From Roseibium aggregatum (GTDB taxonomy: Bacteria > Pseudomonadota > Alphaproteobacteria > Rhizobiales > Stappiaceae), in the NCBI RefSeq assembly GCF_014692675.1, contig NZ_JABFCZ010000010.1, positions 62,001-126,000 of the forward strand: a stretch of DNA of 64,000 bases, in the 5' to 3' direction. The position numbers were made by a program, and so were the translations under genes. Shown here piece by piece: positions 5,120 through 57,781 of this stretch. The first letter of the stretch is position 1, and every line of letters begins with the position of its first letter. The notes below the pieces were generated by a model that was not told where the DNA came from, did no database searches, and saw only the letters and a program-made list of their open reading frames with translations.

Positions 5120-8100
5120 GTGGCTTCTTTACATTCCAATATCGATATCGTCGGTTATGCGAGCCGGTTGCCCGGCGCAAACACTTCGGAAGATTTCTGG
5201 GCGCTTCTGCGCGATGGAAAATGCGCAGTAACATCGGTTTCCAATGACAGATGGCCGCTGGCCCGTTTCGGGCATCCGGACAAGTCCGTTTCGGGCAAGA
5301 CCTACACCTGGGCTGCCGGCCAGCTGGATGATGTCTGGGGTTTCGATCCGTCCTTTTTCGGCATTTCTCCGCGCGAAGCCCTCCAGATAGATCCCCAGCA
5401 GCGCCTCTTGCTGCAACTGGTCTGGGAAGCCCTCGAACACGCCAATATCCCGCCGAGCGAACTGGCCGGTACGACAACCGGCGTTTATGTCGGCGCCTCC
5501 TCGCTTGACTATCACCACCGGTTCATCGGCGACCCGGCAACCGCCGACATGCAGTTCATGACCGGTAACACGCTGTCGATCGTTTCGAACCGCATTTCCT
5601 ATATCTACGACCTGCGCGGCCCGAGTTTCACGGTCGACACCGCCTGCTCCTCGTCCCTCGTCGCCCTGCATGAGGCGATTTCCGCCATCGAGAGCGGCCA
5701 GATCGACACGGCCATCGTTTGCGGCGTCAGCCTGCTTCTGAGCCCGTTCGCCTTCATCGGCTTCTCGCGGGCGACCATGCTGTCGCCGACGGGCCTCTGC
5801 CAGGCCTTCGACGCCAATGGCGACGGTTACGTGCGTTCCGAAGGCGGCGTTGCGATCGTGCTGCGTTCAAAGCGGGCAAAGGTGCTCAACGGGGCCCGGA
5901 GCCATGCAAAAATCCTGGCCTCGGGCATCAATGCCGACGGCCGCACGGTCGGCCTGTCCCTGCCGTCTCCTTACGCCCAGGCGGACCTGCTGCGCGAAAT
6001 GTACGATGGCCTCGGAATCGACCCGAACGCGCTCGCCTTTGTCGAAGCGCACGGCACCGGAACCCGCGTCGGCGATCCGGCGGAAGCCGACGCCCTGGGC
6101 AAGGTCATCGGCCAGAAACGCTCCGAAGTCCTGCCGATCGGATCGGTCAAAACCAACGTCGGTCACCTGGAGCCGGTGTCCGGCCTCGTCGGACTGGTCA
6201 AGTCGCTTCTGGCGCTCAAGCATGACACGCTGCCGAAATCACTGCACTTCAACGCGCCCAACCCGGACATTCCGTTTGAGGAGCTGAACCTCAAGGTCGC
6301 AAGCGAACAGGTCGCGCTTGCCCGCTCCGACAAGCCGCGCCTTGCCGGCATCAACTCGTTCGGCTTCGGCGGCACAAATGCGCATACGGTGATCGCGGAC
6401 GGCGACCCAGAACCGGTGGCGGACGACGCTGTTTCGCCTGGCGCACCGCTGGTCCTGTCCGCACGGTCCAAGGATGCGCTGAAGGAACTGGCGACGCGCT
6501 ATCGCGACCGGCTGAAGGATGCGGATAGTGAAGACGCGGCCCGGGTAACGGTTTCCGCCGCCCACGCGCGGGATCTCCTGGCACAGCGCCTGGTTATCTG
6601 CGGCGACAGCCCGGAAAGCCGGCTTGCGTCCCTGGAGGCCTTTATCGCCGAAGAGGATACGCCCGAGGCGATCGCCGGCGAGGCCCTCAAGCCGAAGGAA
6701 AAGATCGGCTTTGTCTTCTCCGGCAACGGCTCGCAATGGGCCGGCATGGGACAGGAAGCCTACCAGAAGGACGAGACCTTCCGGCTCGCCTTCGAACGGG
6801 TCGACAAGATCTTCATGGGCATCGGCGGCTGGTCGCTTCTGACCACGCTGTTCGCCGAAGACCTGGAAAACGATATCGAGCGCGCGGAAATCTCGCAGCC
6901 GCTGCTGTTTGCCATTCAGGTCGCGCTTGTCGAAGCGTTGCGAAGCCGCGGCATCGAGGCCGAAGGCGCCTGCGGCCACAGTGTCGGCGAAGTCGCTGCC
7001 GCGTGGTGTTGCGGCGCGCTGACCCTGGAACAGGCGGTCAAGGTCATTCACGCCCGCTCCAGCGAACAGGAAGTGGTCCGCGACCTCGGCTCCATGGCGG
7101 CGCTTCTGCTGCCGGCCGACAAGGCACTGGCGGCCATGGAGGAAAGCGGCCTGCCGCGGCTTGAACTGGCCGCGATCAACAGCCCGCGCAGTGTCACCAT
7201 TTCAGGTGACACCGAAAGCCTGGACGCCTTCGCGAAATTCGCCCGCAAGAAGAAGTGGGCCCTGCGCCGTCTGAACCTGGCCTATCCGTTCCACAGCGCG
7301 CTGGTGGACCCGATCCGGGAGCCGCTTCTGACGGCGCTCACCGGCATTACGCCGCAGGAACCGGCCCTGCCCTTCTACTCGACCGTCGAGCCGGAGGCGC
7401 AAGGCCTGACGCTGGACAGCGACTACTGGTGGCGCAACGTCCGCCAGCCGGTGAAATTCGCCGACGCCATCTCGAAGATGAGCGAAGACGGTTTCGGCGT
7501 TCTGGTGGAAATCGGCCCGAAGGCGGTGCTCGGCACCTATATGAACGACGTCCTGCGCAGCGACGGCAAGAAGGCGACGGTGCTTGCGAGCCTCGAACAG
7601 CCGGGCAAGAACAGCGCGCCGGTGCAGAACCCGGTCGCCAAGGTGGCGAGCGGTGTCGTTGCCCATGGCGGCAAGGTGGATCTCTCCCGGTTCGTTGCCC
7701 CGCGGCCGGATGCGTTGACCGCACTTCCCGGATATCCCTGGCAGAATTCGCCCTATATGCCCGACCCCACGTCGGAACGGGTCGACTTCATGTTCGGCCG
7801 GACCTGGCCCCTGCTCGGCTATCGCCTGCGACAGGACGTGGCGGAGTGGTTCAACCATGTGGACGCGGTCGCCATTCCCTGGCTGGCGGATCACAAGGTG
7901 GAGGAATCGGTCGTTTTCCCGGCCGCCGGCTACACGGAAATGGTGCTCAGGGCCGCCCTGAACTGGACCAAGAGCGATACGGTCGAAATTCGCGACCTGG
8001 ACATCCTGCGTCCGCTGGTCATTGACAGCGGCGAGACCTGGGAAACGGAAGTCCGGATCTCGCCGGACGACCGGGTCGTGGAAATCTATTCCAGACCGCG

Positions 8101-11100
8101 TCTGCAGGACAGCGACTGGTCGCTGAATGCCCGCGGTCATTTCGTGACACCGTCGGAGACCGACCATACGCCCTGGCTGCCGGCAGGCGAACAGGAAACC
8201 TCCCGGCTGGATCACGACGCGCTTTACACGATCACCCGGTCCTTCGGCCTGGAATACGGCCCGGTTTTCCGGCGCGCCGACCATGTTATTACCCATGACG
8301 AACGCTCCGCGACCGTCTACCTGCGCCCGCAGGACGACTGCCTTGCGCAGACCGAGTTGTCCCTTTGCCCGACGCTGGTGGATTCCGGCTTCCACGGCCT
8401 TTTCGCCCTGCTGCAATCGGTTTCCGGCGTTCCGGAAAAGACCAGCTTCCTGCCGATCCGCATCGGCAGCCTGCGGCTTTTGCAGCCGGAAGTGAAGCCG
8501 GAAGCGGTCCGCATCAAGGTGACCAAGGCCTCGCCGCGCTCCATCGAGGCGACCTTCGAATATATCGACGCCAACGACGAAGTGATCGCCCGCCTGGCTC
8601 GAACCCGGTTCCGCGCCGTCAAGCTCGGCCGGGAAACGCGCCCGAACGAACTCATTTACAGGCAGCTTGCCACGCTGCTGCCGGATGCCGATCGCAAGGC
8701 CCCGACCGAAGCCGTTCTCCCGAACGGGTTCGCGGCCTTTGCCGGCGATATCGGCGTCGCGGCCGACGAAGCGCCGGAACTGGAAGATTCCGTGCTTCTC
8801 ATCGAGGCCATGGGGCGGACGATTGCCCATGAGACGCTTTGGAACTTCGCAGAAAACGGCAAGTTCGACCTGACGGCCCTGATCGGGACGGACAAGATCC
8901 ACGAGACGGCGCGCCCGCTCGTTCATTCCCTGCTGGGCTGGCTTGAGGAAAGCGGACTTGCCGGAGAAGCCGAGGGCGGCTGGCAGTTGTCTGACCCGGC
9001 AGATGGACCGGATACGTCCCTGCTGATGCAGACGATCGCGCTGGAAGGCGCGCGCCATATTGCCGAAGCATCGCTTCTCGCACGCCTCTACACCGGGCTT
9101 GCCGATGTCCTTCGGGACGGTCTGCCCGCTTCGGCCGGGGATCTTTATGCCGGCGGGCTTTACGACGCCTATCTGACCGCCTCCCCGGCGGCAACGGCCA
9201 TTTCCGGCGCCCTGAAGGCCGCAATCCTGGGACTGGTGGCCAACTGGCCGGAAGACCGGGCCCTGCGCTGCCTCGTCGTCGGCGCCTCCGCGCACGACGT
9301 CATCCAGTCGCTCGATCGCCAGCTCGATCCGCGCCGGATGTCCGTCGCGGTTACGGATCCGTCGGACAGTCATCTCGGCCGTGCAGCACGGCTTTGGACC
9401 GGAAGCACGTCGACACAGTTCCACGAATTCGAAGACGACACGCTTGCAAAGCAGGCGCCGTTCGACCTCATCGTCTTCGGCGCATCTATGGCCGAACTGC
9501 GGGAAGGCCAGCTTTCGAAGATCGCCGACATGGCGGTGGAAGACGCCCTGCTTGTGGCTGCCGAACATCTTGCCGCTCCGCTTACGGATCTGATCCGCGG
9601 CATCGGGCAGGACTGGTGGCAGGACGGAGACAGCGACATTGCGCTGTCGCGCCTGAACGAGGACTGGAGCGAAATCCTCACTCAGGCCGGTTTCGGACAG
9701 ATCGAAACGGCAACGCTGAACAGCACCGTTGCCGAAGGCGATCTGATTGCCGCCCGTGCCGGCGCCAAGGCGGAGCAGGCTGCAGAAGAAGCAGACGGCG
9801 AAGAAGCACCGGTTGCTGTCGAAACCCGGCATTTCCTTCTGTTCACGGATGAGGAAGGCCCTGCCCGCAAGCTGGCAGACGGCCTGTCCGTCTGCCTCAA
9901 CCGGGACCAGGTCGCAACCACCCTGCTGATCGCCGGCCAGGAAACGAAAGAGGTTTCCGAAGGCATCTGGATGATCGATGTCGATGGCGAGAGCGGCGTC
10001 CTGAAGCAGCTGCTTGGCAAGGCAAGCGGGCGTCTGGTTCATCTTCAGGGCGGATATGCCGACAAGGCGGATGCCCTCAATGTCGTCGACAAGCGCACAT
10101 GGTCGCTGACGCGGATCCTGAATACGCTCGGCGCCGATGACGGTGAGATCGTCATCGTTGCCCCCGGTGGCGCACAGGACCTCGCAGGCGGCGTCGCCCA
10201 TTGCCCGGATCAGGCCGGAACCTGGGCCTATGGCCGTGTGGCGATGAATGAGTTCCCCCAGGCGAATGTCCGCCTGATCGACCTGTCGCCGACGCTGGAA
10301 CCGGGCATTGCCGCATCACGGCTTGCCGAGGAACTGCTGCGCGACGGCGAAGAGCGGGAAGTCGTTCTGGACGGCCGGAACCGGTCCGGCCTCAGGATCC
10401 TTCAGGGCGGCGTGCTTCCCGAACAGACGGTTTCCGGCGGCGCCCGCCCCGGAATGCGGCTGGAAATCCTGCGCCAGGGCGCACTGGACCAGTTGTCATG
10501 GCAGGCGCTCGACCGGGCCGACCCTCAAGGATCGGACGTCGAGATCGCCGTTGAAGCCAGCGGCCTGAATTTCCGCGATGTGATGTGGGCCCTCGGCCTG
10601 TTGCCGGAAGAGGCGCTGGAAGACGGTTTTGCCGGACCGACGCTCGGCATGGAATGCTGCGGCACCGTCGTTGCCTGCGGCCCGGGTGTGACCCGCTTCC
10701 GTCCCGGCGACCGGGTCATCACGTTCGCGCCGGCCTGTTTCGCAAGCCATGTGACGGTGGACGAAAGCGGCTGCGCACCGATGCCGTCCACGGTCTCTCC
10801 TGAGGAAGCGGCAACCATCCCGGTGACCTTCCTCACCGCCTATTACGCCCTGGTCCATCTGGCCCGTCTCGCTGAAGGCGAAACGGTCCTGATCCACGGC
10901 GGCGCCGGCGGTGTCGGCCTGGCCGCTCTGCAGATCGCGAAGTGGCGCGGGGCGAGGATCATCACCACCGCCGGCTCTCCGGAAAAGCGCAACGTCCTGA
11001 AGCTGCTCGGGGCCGATGTCGTGCTCGATTCTCGCAGCCTCTCCTTCGTCGACGCGGTCATGAAGGAAACCGACGGTGAAGGCGTCGATGTGGTCCTGAA

Positions 11101-12712
11101 CTCGCTCTTCGGCGAGGCCATGGAACGCAGCATCGACGTGTTGAAGCCCTTCGGCCGGTTCCTGGAACTGGGCAAGCGGGATTATTACGGCAACACGCGG
11201 ATCGGTCTCCGGCCGTTCCGCCAGAACCTGACCTATTTCGGCATTGACGCCGACCAGCTTCTGACCCGCCAGCCGCAGCTCGCAGTCGAGCTGTTCACCA
11301 AGCTGGTAGAGCTATTCGAGAGCCGGACGCTTTCGCCCCTGCCCTACCGGGTGTTCGAGGCGGACCAGGTGGTCGACGCCTTCCGCCTGATGCAGCAGGC
11401 CGGCCATATCGGCAAGATCGTCCTGCGGCCGCCGGAAGTGCCTGAAAACCTGCCGGAAACGCCGCATCTGACCTTCAAGGACGGCGCGGTCTACGTGATT
11501 GCCGGCGGCTTCGGCGGCTTCGGCGTGGAACTGCTCAACCGGCTTGCCGACAAGGGCGCGAAGCACCTGGCGGTGCTCAGCCGCCGCGGCGGCGACTCCG
11601 ACGATGCGCGGCAGGCCATCGAGGTGCTTGAGAAGCGGGGCGTTTCGGTTTCCGCCCATGCCTGCGACATCACCGATGAAGCGACTATGGAATCGGCGCT
11701 GGAAGAGATCCGTTCTTCCGGACATCCGATCTGCGGCGTGTTCCATACGGCAATGGTGCTGAACGACGTCCTGATCGCAAATCTGGAGCATGACGGACTG
11801 ACCCGCGTGCTCGCGCCCAAGGTCCGTGGCGCGGAACTGCTGGACCGGCTGACCAAGGACGATCCGCTCGACCACTTCGTGCTCTATTCGTCTGCGACGA
11901 CCCTGGTCGGCAACCCGGGACAGGCCAACTATGTGGCGGCCAACGGCTACCTGGAAGCGCTTGCGCGCAAGCGCCGCGCGGAAGGCCGCCCTGCCCTCAC
12001 GGTTGCCTGGGGCGCCATCTCCGATGCGGGCTATCTCGCCCGCAACGAGGACGTCAACGAGATGCTCTCGCGCAAACTCGGCCGCCATGCCCTGACCGCC
12101 CGCGAAGCGCTCGACGGCCTGATGTCGCTGATGGCCCTGCCCCAGCAGGACCTGGAAACCGCAGCGGTCGGCTATGCCCGCATCGACTGGCAGTCGGCCC
12201 GCAAGGACCTTGCCCTGCTCGGCACCCCGCTGATCCAGCTTCTGGGTCTTGGCGACGGAGATGACGGCAGTGGCGCGGAAGGCGCCATCGATCTGCATGC
12301 CCTGCTCGACGGCATGGACAAGACGACGGCAGCCCAGACCGTTGCCAAGCTGCTCGCAGCGGAAATCGGCAAGATCCTCAGGATTTCGCCGGATGAAATC
12401 GATGCGCACAAGCCGCTGTCGGATATCGGCATGGATTCGCTGATGGCGCTGGAATTGCGCATGAGCGCGGAACGCCAGCTTGGCATCGACATTCCGCTGA
12501 TGTCGCTTGCCAACGGCGCAACGCTGATCGATCTTTCCAGCCGCGTTGCCAACCGTGTGCTGGGCGAGGAAGGCGACGACCGCTACTCCGCGGACTCCCA
12601 GCAGCTTGCGAGCCAGCACATGACCGACAACGAACGCACGGAAACGGAAGACCTTTCGGACGTCGCAGCGCAACTGGAAAACAAGAGCCGCGAACTGGGA
12701 TCATTCCTATGA
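5120..12712 (+). CDS. rkpA: Iterative reducing type I polyketide/fatty acid synthase, RkpA-like (capsule locus)
   Basis: A 2,530-residue single-module megasynthase starting at GTG behind GAAGG. Domains in order are: ketosynthase (residues ~5-430; active Cys ~175 in DTACSSS, His ~310 in EAHGTGT, His ~347 in NVGHLEP); acyltransferase (~510-830; Ser ~620 in GHSVGE, YPFHS resembling the malonyl-type motif); dehydratase (~870-1170; His ~924, Asp ~1086). A degenerate methyltransferase-like region (~1330-1540) has no SAM glycine motif and is followed by a structural reductase half. Then come enoyl reductase (~1780-2110; GGAGGVG), ketoreductase (~2123-2320; GGFGGFG, catalytic YxxxN in NYVAANG) and carrier protein (Ser ~2438 in GMDSLMAL). 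There is no thioesterase. RkpA of Sinorhizobium meliloti, needed for K-antigen capsule, is the closest family I know. It overlaps the downstream oxoamine synthase by 4 nt (ATGA). Confidence 0.9.
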   Translation: MASLHSNIDIVGYASRLPGANTSEDFWALLRDGKCAVTSVSNDRWPLARFGHPDKSVSGKTYTWAAGQLDDVWGFDPSFFGISPREALQIDPQQRLLLQLVWEALEHANIPPSELAGTTTGVYVGASSLDYHHRFIGDPATADMQFMTGNTLSIVSNRISYIYDLRGPSFTVDTACSSSLVALHEAISAIESGQIDTAIVCGVSLLLSPFAFIGFSRATMLSPTGLCQAFDANGDGYVRSEGGVAIVLRSKRAKVLNGARSHAKILASGINADGRTVGLSLPSPYAQADLLREMYDGLGIDPNALAFVEAHGTGTRVGDPAEADALGKVIGQKRSEVLPIGSVKTNVGHLEPVSGLVGLVKSLLALKHDTLPKSLHFNAPNPDIPFEELNLKVASEQVALARSDKPRLAGINSFGFGGTNAHTVIADGDPEPVADDAVSPGAPLVLSARSKDALKELATRYRDRLKDADSEDAARVTVSAAHARDLLAQRLVICGDSPESRLASLEAFIAEEDTPEAIAGEALKPKEKIGFVFSGNGSQWAGMGQEAYQKDETFRLAFERVDKIFMGIGGWSLLTTLFAEDLENDIERAEISQPLLFAIQVALVEALRSRGIEAEGACGHSVGEVAAAWCCGALTLEQAVKVIHARSSEQEVVRDLGSMAALLLPADKALAAMEESGLPRLELAAINSPRSVTISGDTESLDAFAKFARKKKWALRRLNLAYPFHSALVDPIREPLLTALTGITPQEPALPFYSTVEPEAQGLTLDSDYWWRNVRQPVKFADAISKMSEDGFGVLVEIGPKAVLGTYMNDVLRSDGKKATVLASLEQPGKNSAPVQNPVAKVASGVVAHGGKVDLSRFVAPRPDALTALPGYPWQNSPYMPDPTSERVDFMFGRTWPLLGYRLRQDVAEWFNHVDAVAIPWLADHKVEESVVFPAAGYTEMVLRAALNWTKSDTVEIRDLDILRPLVIDSGETWETEVRISPDDRVVEIYSRPRLQDSDWSLNARGHFVTPSETDHTPWLPAGEQETSRLDHDALYTITRSFGLEYGPVFRRADHVITHDERSATVYLRPQDDCLAQTELSLCPTLVDSGFHGLFALLQSVSGVPEKTSFLPIRIGSLRLLQPEVKPEAVRIKVTKASPRSIEATFEYIDANDEVIARLARTRFRAVKLGRETRPNELIYRQLATLLPDADRKAPTEAVLPNGFAAFAGDIGVAADEAPELEDSVLLIEAMGRTIAHETLWNFAENGKFDLTALIGTDKIHETARPLVHSLLGWLEESGLAGEAEGGWQLSDPADGPDTSLLMQTIALEGARHIAEASLLARLYTGLADVLRDGLPASAGDLYAGGLYDAYLTASPAATAISGALKAAILGLVANWPEDRALRCLVVGASAHDVIQSLDRQLDPRRMSVAVTDPSDSHLGRAARLWTGSTSTQFHEFEDDTLAKQAPFDLIVFGASMAELREGQLSKIADMAVEDALLVAAEHLAAPLTDLIRGIGQDWWQDGDSDIALSRLNEDWSEILTQAGFGQIETATLNSTVAEGDLIAARAGAKAEQAAEEADGEEAPVAVETRHFLLFTDEEGPARKLADGLSVCLNRDQVATTLLIAGQETKEVSEGIWMIDVDGESGVLKQLLGKASGRLVHLQGGYADKADALNVVDKRTWSLTRILNTLGADDGEIVIVAPGGAQDLAGGVAHCPDQAGTWAYGRVAMNEFPQANVRLIDLSPTLEPGIAASRLAEELLRDGEEREVVLDGRNRSGLRILQGGVLPEQTVSGGARPGMRLEILRQGALDQLSWQALDRADPQGSDVEIAVEASGLNFRDVMWALGLLPEEALEDGFAGPTLGMECCGTVVACGPGVTRFRPGDRVITFAPACFASHVTVDESGCAPMPSTVSPEEAATIPVTFLTAYYALVHLARLAEGETVLIHGGAGGVGLAALQIAKWRGARIITTAGSPEKRNVLKLLGADVVLDSRSLSFVDAVMKETDGEGVDVVLNSLFGEAMERSIDVLKPFGRFLELGKRDYYGNTRIGLRPFRQNLTYFGIDADQLLTRQPQLAVELFTKLVELFESRTLSPLPYRVFEADQVVDAFRLMQQAGHIGKIVLRPPEVPENLPETPHLTFKDGAVYVIAGGFGGFGVELLNRLADKGAKHLAVLSRRGGDSDDARQAIEVLEKRGVSVSAHACDITDEATMESALEEIRSSGHPICGVFHTAMVLNDVLIANLEHDGLTRVLAPKVRGAELLDRLTKDDPLDHFVLYSSATTLVGNPGQANYVAANGYLEALARKRRAEGRPALTVAWGAISDAGYLARNEDVNEMLSRKLGRHALTAREALDGLMSLMALPQQDLETAAVGYARIDWQSARKDLALLGTPLIQLLGLGDGDDGSGAEGAIDLHALLDGMDKTTAAQTVAKLLAAEIGKILRISPDEIDAHKPLSDIGMDSLMALELRMSAERQLGIDIPLMSLANGATLIDLSSRVANRVLGEEGDDRYSADSQQLASQHMTDNERTETEDLSDVAAQLENKSRELGSFL

Positions 12713-14082
12713 CCGGACCAAAGGGATTGGGCGCGGATGAGCGCGCCAAACTGATGGACAGCGTCCGTGCCGGGCGCCGCTCGGTACGTGACAAGCGGCC
12801 CTCGTCGACCTCGGAGAAACCCGAAGCGCCGAAGAGAAAAGCTTTCGATTTCAAGACCCTGCCGCAGATCAAGCAGTTGCAGATGCAGCGTGCGGCGGCC
12901 GACATGATGGGGATCGAAAACCCCTTCTTCCGGCCGCATGACGGGCTGGCGACGGGCACGACGGAAATCGGCGGCAAGACCCACGACAATTTCGCTTCCT
13001 ACAACTATCTCGGCCTCAACGGCCACAGGGAAGTCAACCAGGCCGCCAAGGAGGCGATCGACACCTTCGGCACCAGCGTTTCGGCAAGCCGCATCGTTGC
13101 CGGGGAGCGTCCGCTGCATGGCGAGCTGGAGCAGGCGCTTGCGCGCGTGCACGGCGTTGAATCCTCCATCGTCATGGTGAGCGGCCATGCGACCAACGTG
13201 ACCACCATCGGCCATCTGATGCACAAGGGCGATCTCATCCTGACGGATTCCCTGGTGCATAATTCGATTGCCGAAGGTGCAAGGCTGTCCGGGGCGACCC
13301 GGATCAACTTCCCTCATGACGATCTGAACGCACTGGAAAAGCTGCTTTCTGAAAACCGGCACAAGTTCGACAATGTGCTGATCATCGTCGAAGGCCTCTA
13401 TTCCATGGACGGGGATTTCCCGGACCTGAAGCGGCTTGTCGCCCTCAAGCAGTCCTATGACGCCTGGCTGATGGTCGACGAAGCCCATTCCATCGGCGTC
13501 CTCGGCAAGACCGGTCACGGCATTGCCGAACACTTCGGCATCGACCCCAGAGAAGTCGAAATGTGGATGGGGACGCTGTCAAAGACGTTCTCCTCCTGCG
13601 GCGGCTACATCGCCGGCTCCAAGGCCCTGTGCGATTACCTCAAGGTGTCCGCGCCGGGCTTCGTCTTTTCCGTCGGCCTGTCGCCCGCACTGACTGCATC
13701 GGCGATCGCCTCCATCCAGGTCATGGAACGGGAGCCGGAACGGGTCGGAAAGCTTCAGGAAAACGGCCAATACTTCCTGAAAAAGGCACGCGAAGCCGGC
13801 CTCGATACCGGGCCGAGCGCCGGTTATTCGGTGGTGCCGGTCATTGTCGGCGATTCCGTCGGCGCCGCGGTCCTGTCGAACCGGCTTCTGGAACGTGGCG
13901 TCAACGCACTCCCGATCATCTTCCCCGCGGTTCCGGAAAAATCGGCCCGCATCCGCTTCTTCATCACCAGCGAGCACACGAAAGAGCAGATCGACCGCGC
14001 CATCGAGATCACGGTCGAGGAGCTTGCCAGGCTGAAGAATGACGGTTCGGCGGTCGACCGGCTGATCAAGGCAACGCGATAG
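12709..14082 (+). CDS. rkpG: Alpha-oxoamine synthase (KBL/AONS/SPT fold), RkpG-like
   Basis: A 457-residue PLP enzyme of the alpha-oxoamine synthase family, which condenses an acyl thioester with an amino acid under decarboxylation to give an alpha-amino ketone. Visible marks are SASRIVAGERPLHGELE, the aspartate in MVDEAHSIGVLG, and the PLP lysine in GTLSKTFSSCGGYI. It has an N-terminal extension of about 60 charged residues not present in the shorter biotin enzyme BioF. Its ATG overlaps the polyketide synthase stop by 4 nt, and that synthase lacks a thioesterase. The enzyme probably releases the finished acyl chain from the carrier protein, as fungal Fum8-type and bacterial PKS-linked homologues do. 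Which amino acid it uses (serine, glycine or alanine) cannot be read from sequence. It matches RkpG of rhizobial capsule loci. Confidence 0.88.
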   Translation: MTGPKGLGADERAKLMDSVRAGRRSVRDKRPSSTSEKPEAPKRKAFDFKTLPQIKQLQMQRAAADMMGIENPFFRPHDGLATGTTEIGGKTHDNFASYNYLGLNGHREVNQAAKEAIDTFGTSVSASRIVAGERPLHGELEQALARVHGVESSIVMVSGHATNVTTIGHLMHKGDLILTDSLVHNSIAEGARLSGATRINFPHDDLNALEKLLSENRHKFDNVLIIVEGLYSMDGDFPDLKRLVALKQSYDAWLMVDEAHSIGVLGKTGHGIAEHFGIDPREVEMWMGTLSKTFSSCGGYIAGSKALCDYLKVSAPGFVFSVGLSPALTASAIASIQVMEREPERVGKLQENGQYFLKKAREAGLDTGPSAGYSVVPVIVGDSVGAAVLSNRLLERGVNALPIIFPAVPEKSARIRFFITSEHTKEQIDRAIEITVEELARLKNDGSAVDRLIKATR

Positions 14083-14099
14083 GGTCCACTGGCCGAAGG

Positions 14100-14915
14100 T
14101 CAGCCGCCGTCTTTCCCGTTGCCGGAATACCTCGGATCTTCCTCGATATCGGCGGCAAAGCCACCCATGAAGAGATCGGAAATCCGTGCCGGCAGCAGGT
14201 TCTGCAGCCGGATGCCCGTCGCCAGGATGAAGGGGAAGGCATAGAAAGCTTTTCGCTTCTCGATCGCCCGACGCATCTTGATCGCCGCCTTTTCCGCCGG
14301 CATCTCGAATGGTTTGGAGCCTTTGTGCCGGGCCGACATGGGCGACGTGACAAACCCCGGACAAATGATCGTCACGTCGACGCCGAAGGGCGCAAGCCAG
14401 CCGCGCAGGGAATGGCCATAGGCGATAACGGCGGCCTTTGTTGCACTGTAGCTCGGCATGTCGGGCAAGGCGCGCATGCCGGCAAGCGAGGCGACAAGAA
14501 CGATCTGTCCCCGCCCGCGCAGGCGCATCGGTTCCACGACGCCGGTCACCGTATTGACCGCGCCGCGGTAATTGATGTCGATCTGCCGGTCGGCCGCATG
14601 ATCGGCTTCCCGGCTGCGGCCCGGCCCCAGTCCCGCCGTCACGCCGGCGTTGGCGATCAGAAGGTCGACCGGATGCCTTCGATCCAGATCCTCCAGAAAC
14701 GCATGAAGGGCATCCCGGTCGCGGATATCGAGTGCGGCCGTTTCCGCCTCTGCCCCCCGCCCCCGAACCTCTTCGGCGAGCGCCTCAAGCTTCTCCCTGT
14801 CCCGCGCAATCAATGCCAACCGGCGCCCCGGGCGCGCCAGCTCTCGGGCAAGGGCCGTTCCGATGCCTCCGCTCGCACCGGTCAGGACAATCACTTCGGG
14901 ATCTCGCGCAGCCAT
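14100..14915 (-). CDS. rkpH: Short-chain dehydrogenase, RkpH / 3-ketosphinganine reductase-like
   Basis: A classical SDR with TGASGGIG for NAD(P)H near the N-terminus, NAG at the fourth strand, and the catalytic serine and YxxxK in SLAG...SYSATKAA. The C-terminal 50 residues are hydrophobic and aromatic (FYAFPFILATGIRLQNLLP), as in membrane-associated lipid ketoreductases such as 3-ketodihydrosphingosine reductase. I place the start at ATG 14915. A TTG six codons upstream is the alternative. It converges on the oxoamine synthase gene with 17 nt between the two stops. In context it should reduce the alpha-amino ketone made by that enzyme to an amino alcohol. That step is inference, the SDR fold is certain. 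Confidence 0.82.
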   Translation of the reverse strand: MAARDPEVIVLTGASGGIGTALARELARPGRRLALIARDREKLEALAEEVRGRGAEAETAALDIRDRDALHAFLEDLDRRHPVDLLIANAGVTAGLGPGRSREADHAADRQIDINYRGAVNTVTGVVEPMRLRGRGQIVLVASLAGMRALPDMPSYSATKAAVIAYGHSLRGWLAPFGVDVTIICPGFVTSPMSARHKGSKPFEMPAEKAAIKMRRAIEKRKAFYAFPFILATGIRLQNLLPARISDLFMGGFAADIEEDPRYSGNGKDGG

Positions 14916-14975
14916 GGTGGTCTTTTCTTTCAAGGGTCGTGCCGATGTTCCGGATAAAACACCGGATAGCAGGAA

Positions 14976-16688
14976 CTACAAGCCCAGTTTACGGCCAAGC
15001 CAGGACATCGGGTTCAGCATAGGCGAACGCGCAGGCCGCTGCATCTCCTGTTGCCGGGCGACAGCCCTGTCGATCAGGACTTCCGGCGGACACGGCAACA
15101 GGCTCACCGGATCGGTACAGCGGGCGTAAACGGCCAGGGCCAGGTAGACGAGTTCGGCAAGGGTTCTACGGGTCGTGCGTCTCGGAAAAACCGATAGATC
15201 CTCGGTCAGGCCCCAACCGGCGTAAAACGGCAGGCCATGGACGGTGACAGGCACGCCCAGCAAAAGCGCGGCAAATCCCGTCGGCGCCGAAAATGTCTCC
15301 ACCGCATCACACTGCGCGACCAGGTCGGAGATATCGGCCTTTTTTTCAACGAGATCGGCGTAACGGCGCGCTTCCCGGGTTGAGGCCCGGTCTGCTTCCA
15401 GGTCGGTGTGCGGCTTGAAGATGATAAAGGCATCCGGGTTTCTTTCCCGAGCTCGCCGCAACAAATGCAGATTGCGTTCCGAGGTGGCGGCGGCGGCCTC
15501 ATCAACCCGTCCGGCTTCGCCGGGCACCAATACTGTTTGCCGGCCTTTCGGGATTGCGATCGCCCGTGATTTATCCGGACCGTCTTTCAAATCGTGGACC
15601 CGGGCGAGCCTGTCGAGAAGAGCAATCCCGCGGCTCATTTCCTCGGCGCTCAGTTCATAATTCTGAAGCAGCGCCTCCAGTCGGCTCGAACCAGCCGCAT
15701 CGTCATGCGGCCCCAGATCATCGGCCGTGAGCATGGCAGCCGGTGGGAGCACTGCCTCAAGACCGGTAAAGCACAGGAAGTCGTCATCCATGTGCAGCAG
15801 GTCGACACCTCTGTCGCGGCAGGCTTGCTCCAGTGAGCCCGCGCCCAGCCCGCCGGCAGACAGGATAACGCCGCCCTGCCGGGCCGCGGCGGCCAGAGCT
15901 TCGGCATCGTTGTCGTGCCAGGTCACCGGTCCACCGTCTCCGGCAAATGCAGCGGAGATAATCGGACGGCCGCCTGGTGCCACCCCGAAACAATGGACAG
16001 GCCGGTTGTTCTCCGCCCTGCGCGTTTCAATGAGACGCAAGATTTCCAACGCGCCAGACGCATCGATCACGCTCTGGCGGTAAGGCTCGAACCAGGCGGT
16101 GTTTTTCTGCAGGAGCGGACCGATCACACGGTCAAGCTCCAGTTGCGATCCGGCACAGGCCTCGGCGAGGACGCGCCAGAACCCATCCGGTTCGGCATCG
16201 GGAAGTCCGCCGGTCTCCATGAGGATCTGCAGCGCCCGGTTTTCGATGTCGGCTTCCTGTCGCCGCGGGCTGCGCCCATCGGCTGGCGGCAGGGCGCGCC
16301 ATTGCCCGAGGACCGACGTGTCTACGGTCCGCCCGGCCTGAAGGGCATCGGCGAGCAATGCCCGGATCGCCGCTTCGTCGGCGTGCCCGTAGCGTGACAG
16401 GATCGTCGCCTTGAGCATGACATAGGAAAACGAGGACGGTGTCGTCTTCGAATGGAACGGCAACGGACCCGGTATGACCAGGCAGAGAGACTTGCCGTTG
16501 GCCAACGCCTCGCGCCGCGCCGTGTCGAAAGCCTCCTGATTCAGGCCGGAGATCACGAAATCGGCCTCCCCGGCTGTCTTGGCCGGCGATACGCCCAGGC
16601 CCTCGGCAATCCGGCTGTCGAAGTCAGGACGTTCTCCGGAGACGATCAGGCCGTGCAAGGTCTGCTCCGCCGCCGTCTGCGCGTTCAA
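14976..16688 (-). CDS. Capsular polysaccharide glycosyltransferase, KpsC/RkpJ-like (mostly single module)
   Basis: A 570-residue protein whose C-terminal half matches the KpsC/KpsS/LipA-type capsule biosynthesis family of beta-Kdo transferases. Characteristic segments are FIIFKPHTDLE near residue 428 and PTGFAALLLGVPVTVHGLPF-YAGWGLTED near residues 470-500, the nucleotide-sugar site of this family. Typical KpsC proteins are about 670 residues and carry two such modules. Here the N-terminal 250 residues are only weakly similar, so one module looks complete and the other eroded or replaced. The gene overlaps the KpsS-like gene upstream by 4 nt. RkpJ of S. meliloti is the likely rhizobial counterpart. 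The protein should act at the inner face of the cytoplasmic membrane, building the linker between lipid anchor and capsule polymer. Confidence 0.82.
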   Translation of the reverse strand: MNAQTAAEQTLHGLIVSGERPDFDSRIAEGLGVSPAKTAGEADFVISGLNQEAFDTARREALANGKSLCLVIPGPLPFHSKTTPSSFSYVMLKATILSRYGHADEAAIRALLADALQAGRTVDTSVLGQWRALPPADGRSPRRQEADIENRALQILMETGGLPDAEPDGFWRVLAEACAGSQLELDRVIGPLLQKNTAWFEPYRQSVIDASGALEILRLIETRRAENNRPVHCFGVAPGGRPIISAAFAGDGGPVTWHDNDAEALAAAARQGGVILSAGGLGAGSLEQACRDRGVDLLHMDDDFLCFTGLEAVLPPAAMLTADDLGPHDDAAGSSRLEALLQNYELSAEEMSRGIALLDRLARVHDLKDGPDKSRAIAIPKGRQTVLVPGEAGRVDEAAAATSERNLHLLRRARERNPDAFIIFKPHTDLEADRASTREARRYADLVEKKADISDLVAQCDAVETFSAPTGFAALLLGVPVTVHGLPFYAGWGLTEDLSVFPRRTTRRTLAELVYLALAVYARCTDPVSLLPCPPEVLIDRAVARQQEMQRPARSPMLNPMSWLGRKLGL

Positions 16689-17989
16689 AGCGGCACCCCG
16701 AGCGCCCGAGCGCGCTCAAGGCGCGGCGGCGGGTCGACGCAGGCGTCCGGTTCATTCAGGCTGTGATTCAGGATCCGTCGCGCGATGTTGTCTGCGGCAA
16801 CCGGCACGCCCTGCCGATTGTGGATCGAGCCGCGCACCTGGATCGTCCCGGCAATCGCACGCAGAAATGCCTCGAGCAACTCCGGGTCCGGCTTTTCCGG
16901 CCTCGTCCAAAAGGCTTCCAGCGGCGCGCGGGATGTCAGACCGGCGATATCGTAATGGGCGGGAACCAGTGTCTTCACCGGCAAGCCCGCCTGCAGCGCC
17001 TCAAGGCCTGCCGTGGAATTCAATGTCACCATGCCGCTTGCGTGCTTGAACAAGGCACCGAGATTGCCGCCATCGAAGAAGTGAACCCGGCCTTCAAGCC
17101 GATGGCGTTCGGCGGCCTCACCGATCACCTTCGGCCAGTTTTCATAGCCCACGTCCAGGGGATGGCTTTTCAGAACAAGGTGTGCGGCCGTCGGCGCCGC
17201 TTCTGCGAAAGAGCTCAGCACCAGGTCTATGACGTCCGCGAAGCTGGCGTAGGGCGAATGGCGGCGCAGCTGGAAATCGCCTTCCAGCTGGAGCGGCAGG
17301 ATAAAGAACGGCGTGCCGTTCTCGACCAGCCCGGCCAGAGCCGTGTCCGCTTGCCTGTTGCGCCTCTTCTCGCCCAGGAGCCGGATCGCCCCGCGCAGGT
17401 ATTCGGGAACCGGGTGGTAGATCGTATGGCGCTCATAGTGCGGATAAAGCGGCTTCAAAATGACATTCGCCAGATTGTAGATCACGTCGGGAACAGTCTG
17501 CAGATAGAAGGAGCCTGGGAACATCGGCGTGAAATCGACGTCGCCGACCGCGTTCGCGATCCGCCTGACATGCACCGGATCGTCGGGGAAATGGCTCAGC
17601 GTCGACAAACCGTTCTTCTCCAGGGTCATCCAGCCGGGACGCAGGTAACCGAGTTCGGTCACGGCGATCTGAATGCCCTGTTGTTTGGCGCACTTTATGG
17701 CGAGACGATGGTAGACGCGCTGATCGCCGTGGAGAACCAGATCGGTGATCCGGTTCTCTTCCAGAAACCGGTCGATAAATTCCGGCCAATCCGACGGCCG
17801 CCCGCGAAAGGACGAACATTCCGGGCCGTGCCAGTGCAGCCAGTCTCCGGCGCACAGATTGATACGGAACACGTCGTGACCGGCTTCGCGGATGCGGTTT
17901 CCCGTCAGGCGGAAGAGCGGCGACAGCGGCCCCTGCAGGAACAGGACTCTGCGGCGGTCCGGCTCTTTCCGGTCATTCACGCCAGGCAT
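16685..17989 (-). CDS. KpsS-like capsule glycosyltransferase, copy 1
   Basis: A 434-residue member of the capsule biosynthesis KpsS-type family. It shows VLFLQGPLSPLF at the N-terminus, the INLCAGDWLHWHG block near residue 45, and LVLKSHPLDVGYENW near residue 265, followed by LNSTAGLEALQAGLPVKTL, the sugar-nucleotide region. KpsS in E. coli adds the first beta-Kdo to a lyso-phosphatidylglycerol anchor. Here the acceptor may differ because of the neighbouring polyketide/oxoamine synthase genes. The coding sequence overlaps the next gene upstream by 17 nt and the KpsC-like gene downstream by 4 nt, so the three are surely one operon. It is clearly paralogous to the 17973-19331 gene. Confidence 0.82.
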   Translation of the reverse strand: MPGVNDRKEPDRRRVLFLQGPLSPLFRLTGNRIREAGHDVFRINLCAGDWLHWHGPECSSFRGRPSDWPEFIDRFLEENRITDLVLHGDQRVYHRLAIKCAKQQGIQIAVTELGYLRPGWMTLEKNGLSTLSHFPDDPVHVRRIANAVGDVDFTPMFPGSFYLQTVPDVIYNLANVILKPLYPHYERHTIYHPVPEYLRGAIRLLGEKRRNRQADTALAGLVENGTPFFILPLQLEGDFQLRRHSPYASFADVIDLVLSSFAEAAPTAAHLVLKSHPLDVGYENWPKVIGEAAERHRLEGRVHFFDGGNLGALFKHASGMVTLNSTAGLEALQAGLPVKTLVPAHYDIAGLTSRAPLEAFWTRPEKPDPELLEAFLRAIAGTIQVRGSIHNRQGVPVAADNIARRILNHSLNEPDACVDPPPRLERARALGVPL

Positions 17990-19331
17990 AGGACCACAAT
18001 TCGGTTTTCGAGCGGTTGGCCATCTGCTCGGCGAACGTGGTGGCTATCCCCATCTGCCGGGCCTTTTCAAGGCGCGGCGGGGCCTCGCAGAGCGCGCCGG
18101 GAAGGTTGACCGAGCCTTCGACCAGCTTGCGGGCCATGTCCCTCGCCCCGGCCCTTCGTCCCCTGTCGGTATAAAAGCACCCCTTGACCTGAATGGTTCT
18201 GGCGAGCAGGCGTTCCAGGTCTTCCACCAGGGTCCTGTCCGGCCGGGTTCCATCCTTCCAGAAATCATCCAGCGGCTTCTGGCAGGTGAGCCCGGGAATA
18301 TCATAGAGCGCGATGCCCAGAACCTTCGTCGGGCATTTGGCGCGTAACGCGTGAATGCCGGTGGTGCTGTTGATGGTCAGCGCACCGGCGGCATTGCGCA
18401 GCAGGCGATCCAGATTGCCGCCGTCGATGACATAGACGCGTTTCTTGACACCGTATTTCCGTGCGAGCTTGCGCAGGATCTTCCGCCAGGGCTCGATCCC
18501 GTTATCAAGCGGATGCAGCTTGAACACGAGATGGGCGGCGACGGGCGCCACCTTGGCGAAGGACCGGATGACCTCCTCCGCCGCCTCGGCAATATGATCG
18601 TAAGGGGAATTGTAGCGCAGCTGATAATCGCTCTGCAGCTGAAGCGGAAACACGAAATAGGGACAGCCGGCCGCAATCACATCGTCGATCAGATGGGCCG
18701 CATTCCGGTTGCGCCGTTTCGCCAGGAGAAGTCTTGGAATGTTGCTGAGGTAGTCGGGCAGCGGGTGGTAGAGTTTGTCGCGCACGAAGTTCGGATAAAG
18801 CAGCTTTAACAGGACGTTCGACATGTTGAACGTCACCTCGTTCACGGCTTCGGCGTAGAACGGATAGGTGTAGAGGTGACGCCGGTCGGGCTCCGGCAGG
18901 CCTTCGGCCGCAGCCCGGATCCGGTCGGGATCGTTGGGAAACAGCGAATGCGCGGACATCCCGTTTCGCTCCAGCGTGATCCAGTCCGGCCGCAGATATC
19001 CGAATTCATAGGCTGTGCAGGTCAGGCCGAGGTCCGCCCCGACTTCGGCTGCGGCCACGTGATAGGGCATCCGGTCCGCATAGTAGACGATATCGGTAAC
19101 GCCGTTTTCAAGGCAGAACGCCTTGAGCCAGCCCTGCCAGTCCTCCAGCGAGCCACGGTAGGAGGCACAGCGGCGGTCGTGCCAGAAGAACCAGTCTCCG
19201 GGGCACAGGTTGATGCGCAGCGTGCGGCAGCCGAGAAGTTCCAGCTCGTCTGCAACAGTCCGGGCGAAGATCCCAGGCGGCCCCTGAAGGAACAGGAATA
19301 CCTTTGAAGCCGGCTGTCCGTTCGCTAACAC
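17973..19331 (-). CDS. KpsS-like capsule glycosyltransferase, copy 2
   Basis: A 452-residue paralogue of the preceding gene, with VFLFLQGPPGIF, RINLCPGDWFFWHD and LVFKLHPLDNGIEPW in the same order and spacing. The terminal SNSTTG-type motif reads LTINSTTGIHALRAKCPTKV. The start is GTG at 19331 preceded by AGG. Two adjacent KpsS-like genes are unusual for a group-2-type capsule locus, which normally has one KpsS and one KpsC. The pair may add successive linker sugars, or the second copy may do work that the N-terminal KpsC module does elsewhere. This is inference. The gene heads the three-gene glycosyltransferase operon. Confidence 0.82.
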   Translation of the reverse strand: MLANGQPASKVFLFLQGPPGIFARTVADELELLGCRTLRINLCPGDWFFWHDRRCASYRGSLEDWQGWLKAFCLENGVTDIVYYADRMPYHVAAAEVGADLGLTCTAYEFGYLRPDWITLERNGMSAHSLFPNDPDRIRAAAEGLPEPDRRHLYTYPFYAEAVNEVTFNMSNVLLKLLYPNFVRDKLYHPLPDYLSNIPRLLLAKRRNRNAAHLIDDVIAAGCPYFVFPLQLQSDYQLRYNSPYDHIAEAAEEVIRSFAKVAPVAAHLVFKLHPLDNGIEPWRKILRKLARKYGVKKRVYVIDGGNLDRLLRNAAGALTINSTTGIHALRAKCPTKVLGIALYDIPGLTCQKPLDDFWKDGTRPDRTLVEDLERLLARTIQVKGCFYTDRGRRAGARDMARKLVEGSVNLPGALCEAPPRLEKARQMGIATTFAEQMANRSKTELWSYAWRE

Positions 19332-19390: not shown

Positions 19391-20527
19391 TTAGAAATTG
19401 TTACCGATACTCTGGACGCTCGAGACGTTGCTGATCAACGGCGCGATGATCTGCAGGAACTTGCCGAACTCAGCAGTCGGATGGTTCGCGACGTACAGGA
19501 TGTCCTTGTCCCGCATCTCGAAGAAACGGGCCAGGAAGAACCCTTTCGCATCCAGCAGGCTCAGCCTGTAGACAACCGGCACGCTGCTCTCGTTGCCCAG
19601 CTTGTTTGCGATCTCGGGACGCAGTTCGCGCACGAGATCGGTGTCTTCAAACCGGAAGAGGAAGATGCCGGCCGCATCGGCACGATAGTCGTTCAGGCCG
19701 CCAACGGTTGCAAGGGCTTCGGCAAGGGTCACGCTCTTGGTCTTGAACGGGACGAGCTGGTTCGCCTTCACGGCTCCGAAAGCAGAGAAGGTCCGCGGTC
19801 GGTGCGACAACAGGATTGTGTCGTTCGGCGAGACCAGAACGTTGTTTTCCGGATAGTCGATCAGATGTTCCAGGCGGGTGGTGCCTGCCCGGTTGCCCCG
19901 CTTCAGGGTGACGACCGTTTCATAGGTCGCCTCACGGGAGCCGCCGGCCGTGGCCACAAGGTCCAGAAGACGGGTATTTCTGAGCGGCAACGGATAGACG
20001 CCGGGCGAGCCGACATCGCCGACGACAACGGCGGTCGCGCTGAGCTTGTCTTTCAGGGTGACCAGCACCTGAGGTTCGACTGCCTTGCCGACCAGCTTTT
20101 TCTGGATCGACTGGCGCAATCCCTCGACGCTGAGACCCGCAGCCCGGACCCGTCCCGCATAGGGGATGAAGATATAACCGGATTCATCGATAACGACCGG
20201 GATGGTGCTGTTTGCGCTGTCACTGCTGGCAAACAGGCCGTCCTTGGACGCTTCCCAGATACCGACCTCGAGAGTGTCGCCCACACCGAGCAGGTAACTC
20301 TTGTTGCCCTGGCCGACACCATGGAATTCATTTGCAAATGCCAGAGGACGGTAACGCTTGATTATATCGATGTTCGACGGATCGATCGAAATGATCGAAT
20401 AGGCACCTTCCTGAGAATTGGATTCGATATCCTGCGACGTAATATTCATCGCCGCGGGACCTTCTGACGGCAGTGCTCCGCACCCCGCCAGAGCCGCCCC
20501 CAAAATCAAAACTGCGGAAAATCTCAT
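19391..20527 (-). CDS. Outer-membrane polysaccharide export lipoprotein (OPX, Wza/KpsD type)
   Basis: A 378-residue lipoprotein. The signal peptide ends in the lipobox LAGC at residues 13-16. The poly-export domain begins around YLLGVGDTLEVGIW near residue 80 and is followed by SLBB-like beta-grasp repeats, for example GDVGSPGVYPLP near residue 167. Proteins of this family form the outer-membrane channel through which capsule or exopolysaccharide leaves the cell. It lies 59 nt upstream of the KpsS-like operon in the same direction, so it is probably co-transcribed. The inner-membrane exporter (KpsMT or Wzx/Wzy with KpsE) is not in the window. Confidence 0.87.
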   Translation of the reverse strand: MRFSAVLILGAALAGCGALPSEGPAAMNITSQDIESNSQEGAYSIISIDPSNIDIIKRYRPLAFANEFHGVGQGNKSYLLGVGDTLEVGIWEASKDGLFASSDSANSTIPVVIDESGYIFIPYAGRVRAAGLSVEGLRQSIQKKLVGKAVEPQVLVTLKDKLSATAVVVGDVGSPGVYPLPLRNTRLLDLVATAGGSREATYETVVTLKRGNRAGTTRLEHLIDYPENNVLVSPNDTILLSHRPRTFSAFGAVKANQLVPFKTKSVTLAEALATVGGLNDYRADAAGIFLFRFEDTDLVRELRPEIANKLGNESSVPVVYRLSLLDAKGFFLARFFEMRDKDILYVANHPTAEFGKFLQIIAPLISNVSSVQSIGNNF

Positions 20528-20804: not shown

Positions 20805-21986
20805 ATGTCGCCGACCCAAGAAACGCTCGAAAATGACATTCGAACAGCGGCAAACCGGCTTTCTGACTGGATTGTCGATTCGGCATTTCCCCGCTGGCAT
20901 TCCGGCGGCTACGATTCGGAAAGCGGGGCCTTTTTCGAAACCATCGACATCGTCTCCGGAAAAGGAACGGATGCGCCCGTCCGCACCCGCGTGCCTGCAC
21001 GCCAGATCTATTGTTTCGCGCAGGCGGGAACCCTCGGCTGGCAAGGTCCCTGGCGGGAGGTCGTCGCGCACGGCCTGAACTGGTACCTGGAGCATTGCAG
21101 AATCCCCGACACGAGCTTTGCGGCGGTGGTCGCAACCGACGGCACCCATCTCGATTCCGATTTTGACCTTTATAATCAGGCCTTTGCCCTTCTGGCTTTT
21201 GCCCATGCGGGCCATGTCCTCACCGAACGGCGGACCGACCTGTTCGCGGATGCCGCCGGTCTGCTGACCCTTCTACGGGAATACTACGGGCATCCGGCCG
21301 CCGGCTTCCGGGAGGCCAATCCGGATCGCCTGCCGCTATGCTCCAACCCGCATATGCACCTGTTTGAAGCCGCCCTCGCGCTGGAAGAAGTCGGCGCAGG
21401 CAGCATCTGGAGTGACCTCGCCGACGAGATCGCCCGTCTGGCCATGGACAAGTTCATCGATCCCGTCTCCGGGGGTTTGCGCGAATTCTTCAACCTCGAC
21501 TGGTCGCCTTTTGCCGGAGAGCAGGGCCGCATCATGGAACCCGGCCACCAGTTCGAATGGAGCTGGCTGCTGACCAGATGGGGCAAGGCCCGAAACGACT
21601 TCGAAGCCCTGGCGAAAGCACGCCGCCTCTACCAGATCGGCATCTCCCATGGCGTTGATCCCGAACGCCAGGTCGCAATCATGACACTCCATGATGATTT
21701 TTCCGTCTTTAATCCGATGGCCCGCTTGTGGGGGCAAACCGAATGGCTGAAGGCAGCCGTCTCGATGGCCGGTGTTTCCATCGGCTGCGAACGCGACGCC
21801 TATCTGGCCGACGTTCTTCGCGCCATGAAAGCGCTCGAAACCTATTTCGAGGACGTACCCGATGGTCTTTGGAAAGACAAATTCGATAAAATGTATACAT
21901 TCAAGACAGAGCCAGCTCCAGCCAGCTCTTTCTACCACATTGTCTGCGCCGCCCTTGAGCTGTCTGACTTTTGTAGTCAAATTTGA
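20805..21986 (+). CDS. AGE-family epimerase/isomerase (N-acylglucosamine 2-epimerase or mannose-6-phosphate isomerase-like)
   Basis: An (alpha/alpha)6-barrel protein of about 393 residues. Conserved family stretches are CSNPHMHLFEAALAL and EPGHQFEWSWLLTRWG, containing the catalytic histidines of AGE-type sugar isomerases. The frame is open further upstream to 20679, but that extension is low-complexity and unlike the family. ATG 20805 follows GGGAG and gives the usual length. An ATG at 20781 is possible. Members interconvert N-acetylglucosamine/N-acetylmannosamine, cellobiose, or mannose and fructose (6-phosphate). The divergent orientation from the capsule export gene fits supply of a capsule sugar, but this is inference. 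The exact sugar cannot be told. Confidence 0.85.
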   Translation: MSPTQETLENDIRTAANRLSDWIVDSAFPRWHSGGYDSESGAFFETIDIVSGKGTDAPVRTRVPARQIYCFAQAGTLGWQGPWREVVAHGLNWYLEHCRIPDTSFAAVVATDGTHLDSDFDLYNQAFALLAFAHAGHVLTERRTDLFADAAGLLTLLREYYGHPAAGFREANPDRLPLCSNPHMHLFEAALALEEVGAGSIWSDLADEIARLAMDKFIDPVSGGLREFFNLDWSPFAGEQGRIMEPGHQFEWSWLLTRWGKARNDFEALAKARRLYQIGISHGVDPERQVAIMTLHDDFSVFNPMARLWGQTEWLKAAVSMAGVSIGCERDAYLADVLRAMKALETYFEDVPDGLWKDKFDKMYTFKTEPAPASSFYHIVCAALELSDFCSQI

Positions 21987-57692: not shown

Positions 57693-57781
57693 TCTTGTCT
57701 CTCCCTCGATCGGAACCGTGAAGGACGGCCGTCCAGCCAATTCCCCAAACCGATCCGCTGCGCCGCAGACCGGTTAATTGT

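Follow-up and report, generated by a model that had tools for sequence, protein, structure and literature searches.

The rkp-1 region of Sinorhizobium meliloti has been reported to be necessary for K antigen and to produce a lipid carrier (PMC3557214, PMC4881576). A capsule-lipid role for these genes is therefore an old idea; the missing part was the chemistry. More recently, Peters et al. (2025) found that PfSgaA and PfSgaB of Pseudomonas fluorescens MYb115 give rise to sphinganines of the lengths C24, C26 and C28 and that SgaB, once purified, acts as a serine palmitoyltransferase (SPT) and prefers L-serine almost exclusively; MYb115 also contains compounds heavier by 154 Da, most likely phosphoglycero-sphingolipids (PMC12134224). 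The short-chain dehydrogenase/reductase (SDR) SgaC was proposed as the 3-ketosphinganine reductase, and 6101 homologous sga clusters were counted, mostly in Burkholderia; neither "capsule" nor "polysaccharide" occurs in the text of that paper (PMC12134224). Our literature search found no paper linking sphinganine with KpsS, KpsC or capsule. Here we describe a related locus in a 64,000-nucleotide stretch of Roseibium aggregatum DNA (contig NZ_JABFCZ010000010.1, positions 62,001 to 126,000; hereafter the window), which belongs to a 5.66 Mb draft genome of 130 contigs. On balance, we consider it probable that the product of this locus is a sphinganine-type lipid for a capsule that depends on an ABC transporter and is linked through β-3-deoxy-D-manno-oct-2-ulosonic acid (Kdo), with enzyme activities predicted from sequence, and we lean slightly towards the view that the lipid would be the capsule's anchor or primer.

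The core of the locus is an iterative type I polyketide synthase (PKS) of the RkpA/WcbR/SgaA type (2530 aa; 5120..12712, plus strand), assigned from Pfam domains, motifs and synteny, followed by an alpha-oxoamine synthase (AOS) of the RkpG/SgaB type (457 aa; 12709..14082, plus strand), assigned from Pfam PF00155, motifs and a phylogenetic tree. The PKS runs from a GTG start at 5120 to a TGA stop ending at 12712, and the AOS ATG lies at 12709 within cctATGAcc, giving a 4-nt overlap (ATGA). Pfam resolved a single reducing module with the order KS-AT-DH-(degenerate MT)-ER-KR-ACP and no thioesterase, reductase or condensation domain C-terminal of the acyl carrier protein (ACP). Coordinates and domains thus agree with the first-pass annotation of the window, which had described a thioesterase-less PKS overlapping an AOS by 4 nt. 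In an alignment that included RkpA of S. meliloti and four further PKSs from capsule loci, the KS, AT, DH, ER, KR and ACP active-site motifs are intact; the methyltransferase-like region upstream of the ER has lost its S-adenosylmethionine motif. It is very probable that the AOS releases the PKS chain. The SwfA PKS of a sponge symbiont was considered as the closest relative and set aside; the SwfA paper itself separates SwfA from RkpA/WcbR.

The AOS is 53.6% identical to the S. meliloti protein (RkpG), and its pyridoxal 5'-phosphate lysine, His, Asp/His and Arg motifs are conserved. In a tree of 58 sequences, SgaB not being among them, it fell into a clade of 46 entries (99/95) together with RkpG, Pseudomonas, Burkholderiaceae and other PKS-linked forms. 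This clade joined human SPTLC2 (95/88), while E. coli BioF, 2-amino-3-ketobutyrate CoA ligase (KBL), the genome's own 5-aminolevulinate synthase (ALAS) and the SPT of Sphingobacterium all lay outside it. Because the SPTLC2 branch is long, this position is support for an SPT-type relationship and not proof of one. Based on this placement and on the SgaB biochemistry, we predict that the AOS likely uses L-serine. The same two lines of evidence back the sphinganine-type product that had been proposed from the window sequence; the accompanying statement that no such product had been reported is outdated, since the PfSgaA/PfSgaB sphinganines were published in 2025 (PMC12134224).

The third enzyme is an SDR (277 aa; 14100..14933, minus strand; PF00106) in the position of SgaC and the proposed 3-ketosphinganine reductase. 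It is convergent to the AOS and hence outside the AOS operon. The first-pass annotation had called it 3-ketosphinganine-reductase-like with a hydrophobic C-terminus. The terminus proved only moderately hydrophobic, with a best 19-residue Kyte-Doolittle mean of 1.18 (1.0-1.6 in homologues). Sequence and fold libraries did not single out the activity: profile scores resemble those of a general SDR, the top matches of a fold search against the PDB were nearly tied (HSD17B13, 11beta-HSD1, LigD and FabG-like chains), and no ketosphinganine reductase stood among the fold matches listed, which excludes nothing. The best support comes from the SDR at the matching position of the Pseudomonas locus, to which it is 42% identical, as it is to the SDRs of the Caballeronia and Paraburkholderia loci; identity to RkpH is 31%. 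Of the three enzyme steps, reduction of the ketone by the SDR would be the weakest supported.

Next to this trio stand capsule genes, as the first-pass annotation had noted, and matches to PF05159, Poly_export and SLBB bear it out. A KpsC-like gene (570 aa; 14976..16688) matches PF05159 weakly and in its C-terminal part only, two KpsS-like retaining β-Kdo transferases (16685..17989 and 17973..19331) match it with 251 and 246 bits, and an outer-membrane polysaccharide export (OPX) lipoprotein with Poly_export and SLBB domains (19391..20527) is placed by synteny in the RkpU/KpsD role; all four are on the minus strand. The OPX N-terminus is lipobox-like (...LILGAALAGC). An N-acylglucosamine 2-epimerase family gene (20811..21986, plus strand; PF07221) follows and is a neighbor kept in most Roseibium-type loci. 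The remainder of a group 2 capsule export set is found on another contig of the genome, which encodes KpsM, KpsT and two KpsE-like proteins (scores of 217 and 192 bits, both short of the curated cut-off).

The two KpsS paralogues are 42% identical to each other, and two copies are kept in most Stappiaceae loci. The KpsC-like open reading frame is intact, yet 40 of the 122 columns that do not vary among 12 Stappiaceae relatives are changed in it (0 to 13 in the others), the Pro of the HP motif among them, and its nonsynonymous divergence (dN) from Roseibium polysiphoniae is 0.64, against 0.12 to 0.34 for neighboring genes. To judge from these substitutions, this gene, whose KpsC counterpart extends the Kdo chain in group 2 capsules, seems to have degenerated or taken on another role in this species. 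A Kdo-linked anchor would still be expected in Stappiaceae, since neither KpsS copy has lost the HP motif or the other motifs. When eight window proteins were compared by tblastn with 31 related loci, the PKS-AOS-SDR-KpsC-KpsS-KpsS-OPX block showed synteny across about 20 named genomes of Stappiaceae, and the AOS is carried by 51 of 61 genomes sampled in the family.

The closest described arrangement is that of S. meliloti, where an export protein, PKS, AOS (overlapping the PKS by 4 nt, as in the window), SDR, an unannotated gene and a KpsS-like gene correspond to rkpU-A-G-H-I-J. The window shares the PKS, the overlapping AOS, an SDR, a KpsS-like protein and the OPX protein with this region. 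It differs in having a second KpsS and a KpsC-like gene, in carrying its SDR on the opposite strand, and in lacking RkpI, a protein resembling lipoteichoic acid (LTA) synthase (LtaS). Since no LtaS-like RkpI is present in the genome, the window is counted as a variant of the RkpA/RkpG capsule-lipid module, on sequence grounds, and not as the rkp-1 locus proper. Clade membership of the AOS, the S. meliloti gene order and the PKS motif alignment nevertheless uphold the earlier identification of an RkpA/G/H-type trio. PfSgaABC likewise consists of an iterative single-module PKS, an AOS and an SDR, and the product of this homologous set is sphinganine; in contrast to our reading of the window, Sga was published as a free-lipid pathway without a capsule, and its orthology is drawn through a related Pseudomonas plasmid locus.

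Other known systems share parts of the set. The Burkholderia proteins WcbR and WcbT, considered here from the literature alone, are RkpA/RkpG homologues in a capsule cluster (PMC3908369), and plasmids of Caballeronia and Paraburkholderia differ from the window by extra LpxC-like, GNAT and LtaS-like genes. The group 2 capsule system of E. coli has in common with the window its KpsS-type β-Kdo transferases with the HP motif, ABC transporter and OPX export, but no PKS, AOS or SDR figures in the described pathway, which draws its lipid from phospholipid, KpsS and KpsC acting on (lyso)phosphatidylglycerol (PMC10148158). The SPT of Caulobacter, working with AcpR, performs the same AOS chemistry on acyl-ACP to yield 3-oxo-sphinganine (PMC9386255). 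In contrast to the window, this canonical type of bacterial SPT uses a discrete ACP and an acyl-ACP synthetase in place of a PKS, and the one such sequence in our tree, from Sphingobacterium, belongs to an AOS lineage separate from the window clade.

We also surveyed the surroundings of AOS relatives in genomes drawn evenly from the class and phylum (33 loci with at most 20 kb per flank). A KpsS/KpsC-type gene was present in 12 of the 26 loci from other Pseudomonadota in which the AOS is linked to an RkpA-type PKS (one, cut by a contig end, included), in a sample partly clustered by genus, for which by-family counts are safer. Some capsule gene was found in 16 of these 26, in contrast to none of the seven AOS loci without such a PKS. 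The chance of a PF05159 gene in a random 40 kb is estimated at about 1 to 2%, since in the window genome such genes are confined to the window cluster. PKS-linked AOS genes thus adjoin KpsS/KpsC far above chance. The link between the trio and capsule that the first-pass annotation drew from one locus therefore extends to gene neighborhoods in Stappiaceae, S. meliloti, plasmid loci and the survey.

A third partner came to light in these neighborhoods. A gene annotated as "LTA synthase" or "alkaline phosphatase family" accompanies the AOS in plasmid loci of Pseudomonas, Caballeronia, Paraburkholderia, Shinella and Acidisoma. S. meliloti RkpI belongs to the same Pfam family (PF00884); its nearest solved structures are the GacH phosphoglycerol transferase and a Listeria LTA primase, and its presumed nucleophile Thr and metal-site motifs are conserved. 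A six-sequence profile was run against 249 genomes of the order, with matches above 330 bits taken as strong, and returned 14 strong and 17 weaker matches. Every one of the 14 strong-match genomes had the window-type AOS, against only one of 23 controls (0/14 tested with a weak match, 1/9 with none; Fisher p = 2e-9, or 4e-4 by family). Omission of the four strong-match genomes already known to have the AOS still gave p = 1e-7. The AOS and the LtaS-like gene lie far apart or on separate contigs in several genomes, and in all 12 loci fetched, including those unlinked to the AOS, the LtaS-like gene is directly beside KpsS/KpsC. Since a gene of a glycerol-phosphate-moving family adjoins KpsS/KpsC and co-occurs with the AOS, the PKS-AOS pair is tied to KpsS. 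Glycerol phosphate is also the group putatively present on the heavier sphingolipids of MYb115 (PMC12134224).

Stappiaceae depart from this pattern. Searches with PF00884, RkpI and the six-sequence profile found just two PF00884 genes in the window genome, both with the CxPxR motif of sulfatases, and the six-sequence profile gave no strong match in any of the 61 Stappiaceae genomes (best 86 bits). Because the LtaS-like gene is absent, Stappiaceae would have to use sphinganine unmodified or give it a different head group. For the relatives that possess the gene, we regard as evenly balanced the prediction that the LtaS-like enzyme adds phosphoglycerol; a sphinganine mimic of lyso-phosphatidylglycerol is the likely anchor in these LtaS-positive organisms. 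The first-pass annotation had set the amino-alcohol lipid in place of lyso-phosphatidylglycerol; in many relatives the accompanying transferase gene suggests instead that the sphinganine would be converted to resemble it.

Several loci showed further variation. On an Acidisoma plasmid (13022-28539 of locus L078), an SDR, AOS, KpsS/KpsC, LtaS-like gene and KpsMTE occur together; since the 29 kb stretch has no PKS, the probable substrate of this AOS is ordinary acyl-ACP or acyl-CoA. Caballeronia/Paraburkholderia capsule loci have an LpxC-like deacetylase between PKS and AOS (L075, 13033-13959; L076, 12935-13849), and the Paraburkholderia locus has a GNAT gene downstream of the AOS; extra acylation or deacylation of the amino lipid is a possible role for these genes. 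In Planktothrix agardhii, one plasmid coding sequence combines an AOS domain with a type I PKS (L080, 7587-15185), and its neighbors are GT39-type glycosyltransferases, with no capsule genes. A 4.8 kb coding sequence on a Streptomyces anthocyanicus plasmid ends in a sister-clade AOS (L079, 10371-15194), with genes for an MMPL transporter and an LCP protein nearby.

Based on these observations, we propose the following pathway. The PKS, whose domains are observed, would use its own ACP to carry the long saturated acyl chain that it assembles. The co-translated AOS would take the chain from the ACP and condense it with L-serine to 3-keto-sphinganine, as predicted from SgaB biochemistry and orthology, and the SDR would reduce the ketone to give sphinganine. 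In Sinorhizobium, Methylobacterium, Pseudomonas and Burkholderiaceae, the LtaS/GacH-like RkpI may then add glycerol phosphate to form a mimic of lyso-phosphatidylglycerol; Stappiaceae would use free sphinganine or another head group. KpsS would place the first β-Kdo on the lipid and the polymer would grow in the cytosol, with export predicted to proceed through KpsM/KpsT/KpsE and the OPX protein. In its broadest form the proposal is tentative, and we give it somewhat less than an even chance: that widespread Gram-negative capsules are sphingolipid-anchored, with very-long-chain sphinganine from PKS/AOS/SDR, glycerol phosphate from the LtaS-like RkpI and priming by KpsS, Stappiaceae doing without the phosphoglycerol step.

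Some observations weigh against this proposal. No capsule gene was seen in the stretch examined at 10 of the 26 PKS-AOS loci. The SDR is absent from the block in Hongsoonwoonella and Stappia stellulata and lies 9 kb distant in Chthonobacter. The catalytic domains of LtaS-family proteins lie outside the inner membrane, and KpsS is in the cytosol. Since the two work on opposite sides, a phosphoglycerol form would need inward flipping, or the addition would be a later step. A structure search of the AOS, which the first-pass annotation had suggested, gave a divided answer: for the AlphaFold2 model (pLDDT 84.8) the best match was indeed an SPT with bound L-serine (Z 49.9, 392 residues, 1.8 Å), but structures of the promiscuous ThAOS and of KBL tie with it, so the fold does not discriminate the amino acid. 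The main counter-evidence is the work of Fraysse et al. (2005), which, going by its title as cited in PMC5539429, found a phospholipid anchor on the poly-Kdo of S. meliloti 1021.

One alternative is that the trio makes free sphingolipids, as membrane lipids or secondary metabolites, and that the capsule neighborhood is mere co-location of envelope genes. The loci without a visible capsule gene fit this view, as does the report of free sphinganines and phosphoglycero-sphingolipids with no discussion of capsule (PMC12134224). We consider it unlikely, since the KpsS/KpsC linkage recurs in several classes, the LtaS-like gene co-occurs with the AOS even when unlinked and always stands beside KpsS/KpsC, and rhizobial genetics ties the same genes to capsule (PMC3557214, PMC4881576). 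Moreover, the MYb115 sphinganine locus may itself be a capsule locus. Its PKS, AOS and SDR bear the locus tags RS19805, RS19800 and RS19775 (PMC12134224), leaving four tags between AOS and SDR. This gap matches that of the related Pseudomonas plasmid locus, which reads PKS, AOS, PhyH, KpsC, GNAT, LTA synthase, SDR, KpsS, KpsC, phosphotransferase, KpsF, KdsB, KdsA; the prediction is drawn from this order and the tag spacing.

A second explanation, which we also find improbable, grants the lipid a part in the capsule as a transport or priming cofactor and leaves ordinary lyso-phosphatidylglycerol as the covalent anchor, as in E. coli group 2 capsules. It would accommodate the phospholipid anchor named in the title of Fraysse et al., together with the need of rkp-1 for S. 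meliloti poly-Kdo secretion (PMC4881576), and it accords with the substrates of E. coli KpsS and KpsC (PMC10148158). However, no PKS or AOS is required in the E. coli pathway as it has been described, and a 2530-aa PKS would be uneconomical for a lipid that serves as a catalytic cofactor. A phosphoglycerol transferase partner would in turn account for a phospholipid-like anchor: a sphinganine bearing phosphoglycerol could have been taken for the phospholipid anchor of S. meliloti poly-Kdo.

Quite unlikely, in our view, is that the AOS takes alanine or glycine and yields a 1-deoxy-sphinganine or an amino-ketone lipid that is still directed to the capsule. The AOS family varies in its amino acid, motifs and fold do not discriminate between them, and the window enzyme falls under every NCBIfam equivalog cut-off; against this stand the near-exclusive use of L-serine by SgaB (PMC12134224) and the union of the AOS clade, in a tree without SgaB, with SPTLC2. 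A role of the AOS in biotin or threonine metabolism, with its place next to the PKS a coincidence, is scarcely credible: BioF is its best NCBIfam profile, but at 353 bits against a cut-off of 426, and the 4-nt overlap kept in S. meliloti, the synteny and the tree position all speak against it, while the biotin-type substrate, an outcome to which the first-pass annotation had exposed its own proposal, is removed because the only other AOS of the genome is ALAS, with no BioF and no BioB above the curated cut-off.

Elsewhere in the window, an MttB-family methyltransferase (3008-4549) lies beside a dimethylglycine-dehydrogenase-like protein (115-2676), which is ordinary methylamine/betaine metabolism with no link to the capsule-lipid finding. 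A bacterial WD40 beta-propeller protein (51239-52624) adjoins a cytochrome b561-type gene near a molybdopterin oxidoreductase (54795-57740).

In conclusion, a capsule lipid from rkp-1 was already known, and the production of sphinganine by a PKS and an AOS is a recent discovery. New, according to the literature searched, are the joining of the two, the prediction that the LtaS-like partner, represented in rhizobia by RkpI, is the anchor's phosphoglycerol transferase, and the Stappiaceae variant that lacks the LtaS-like gene. Sphinganine is a lipid otherwise characteristic of animal and fungal cells, and here the type of enzyme set found to make it in another bacterium sits inside the capsule genes of a marine alphaproteobacterium. 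If the sphingolipid anchor is true, it would answer a question that has stood since the 1990s, the nature of the rkp-1 lipid of the rhizobial K antigen, and thousands of unexpected sphingolipid clusters, mostly in Burkholderia, would become capsule-anchor loci. Capsule genes would then predict which bacteria produce sphingolipids, RkpI-type proteins would gain a testable activity, and it would be seen where bacteria produce eukaryote-like long-chain bases at the host interface.

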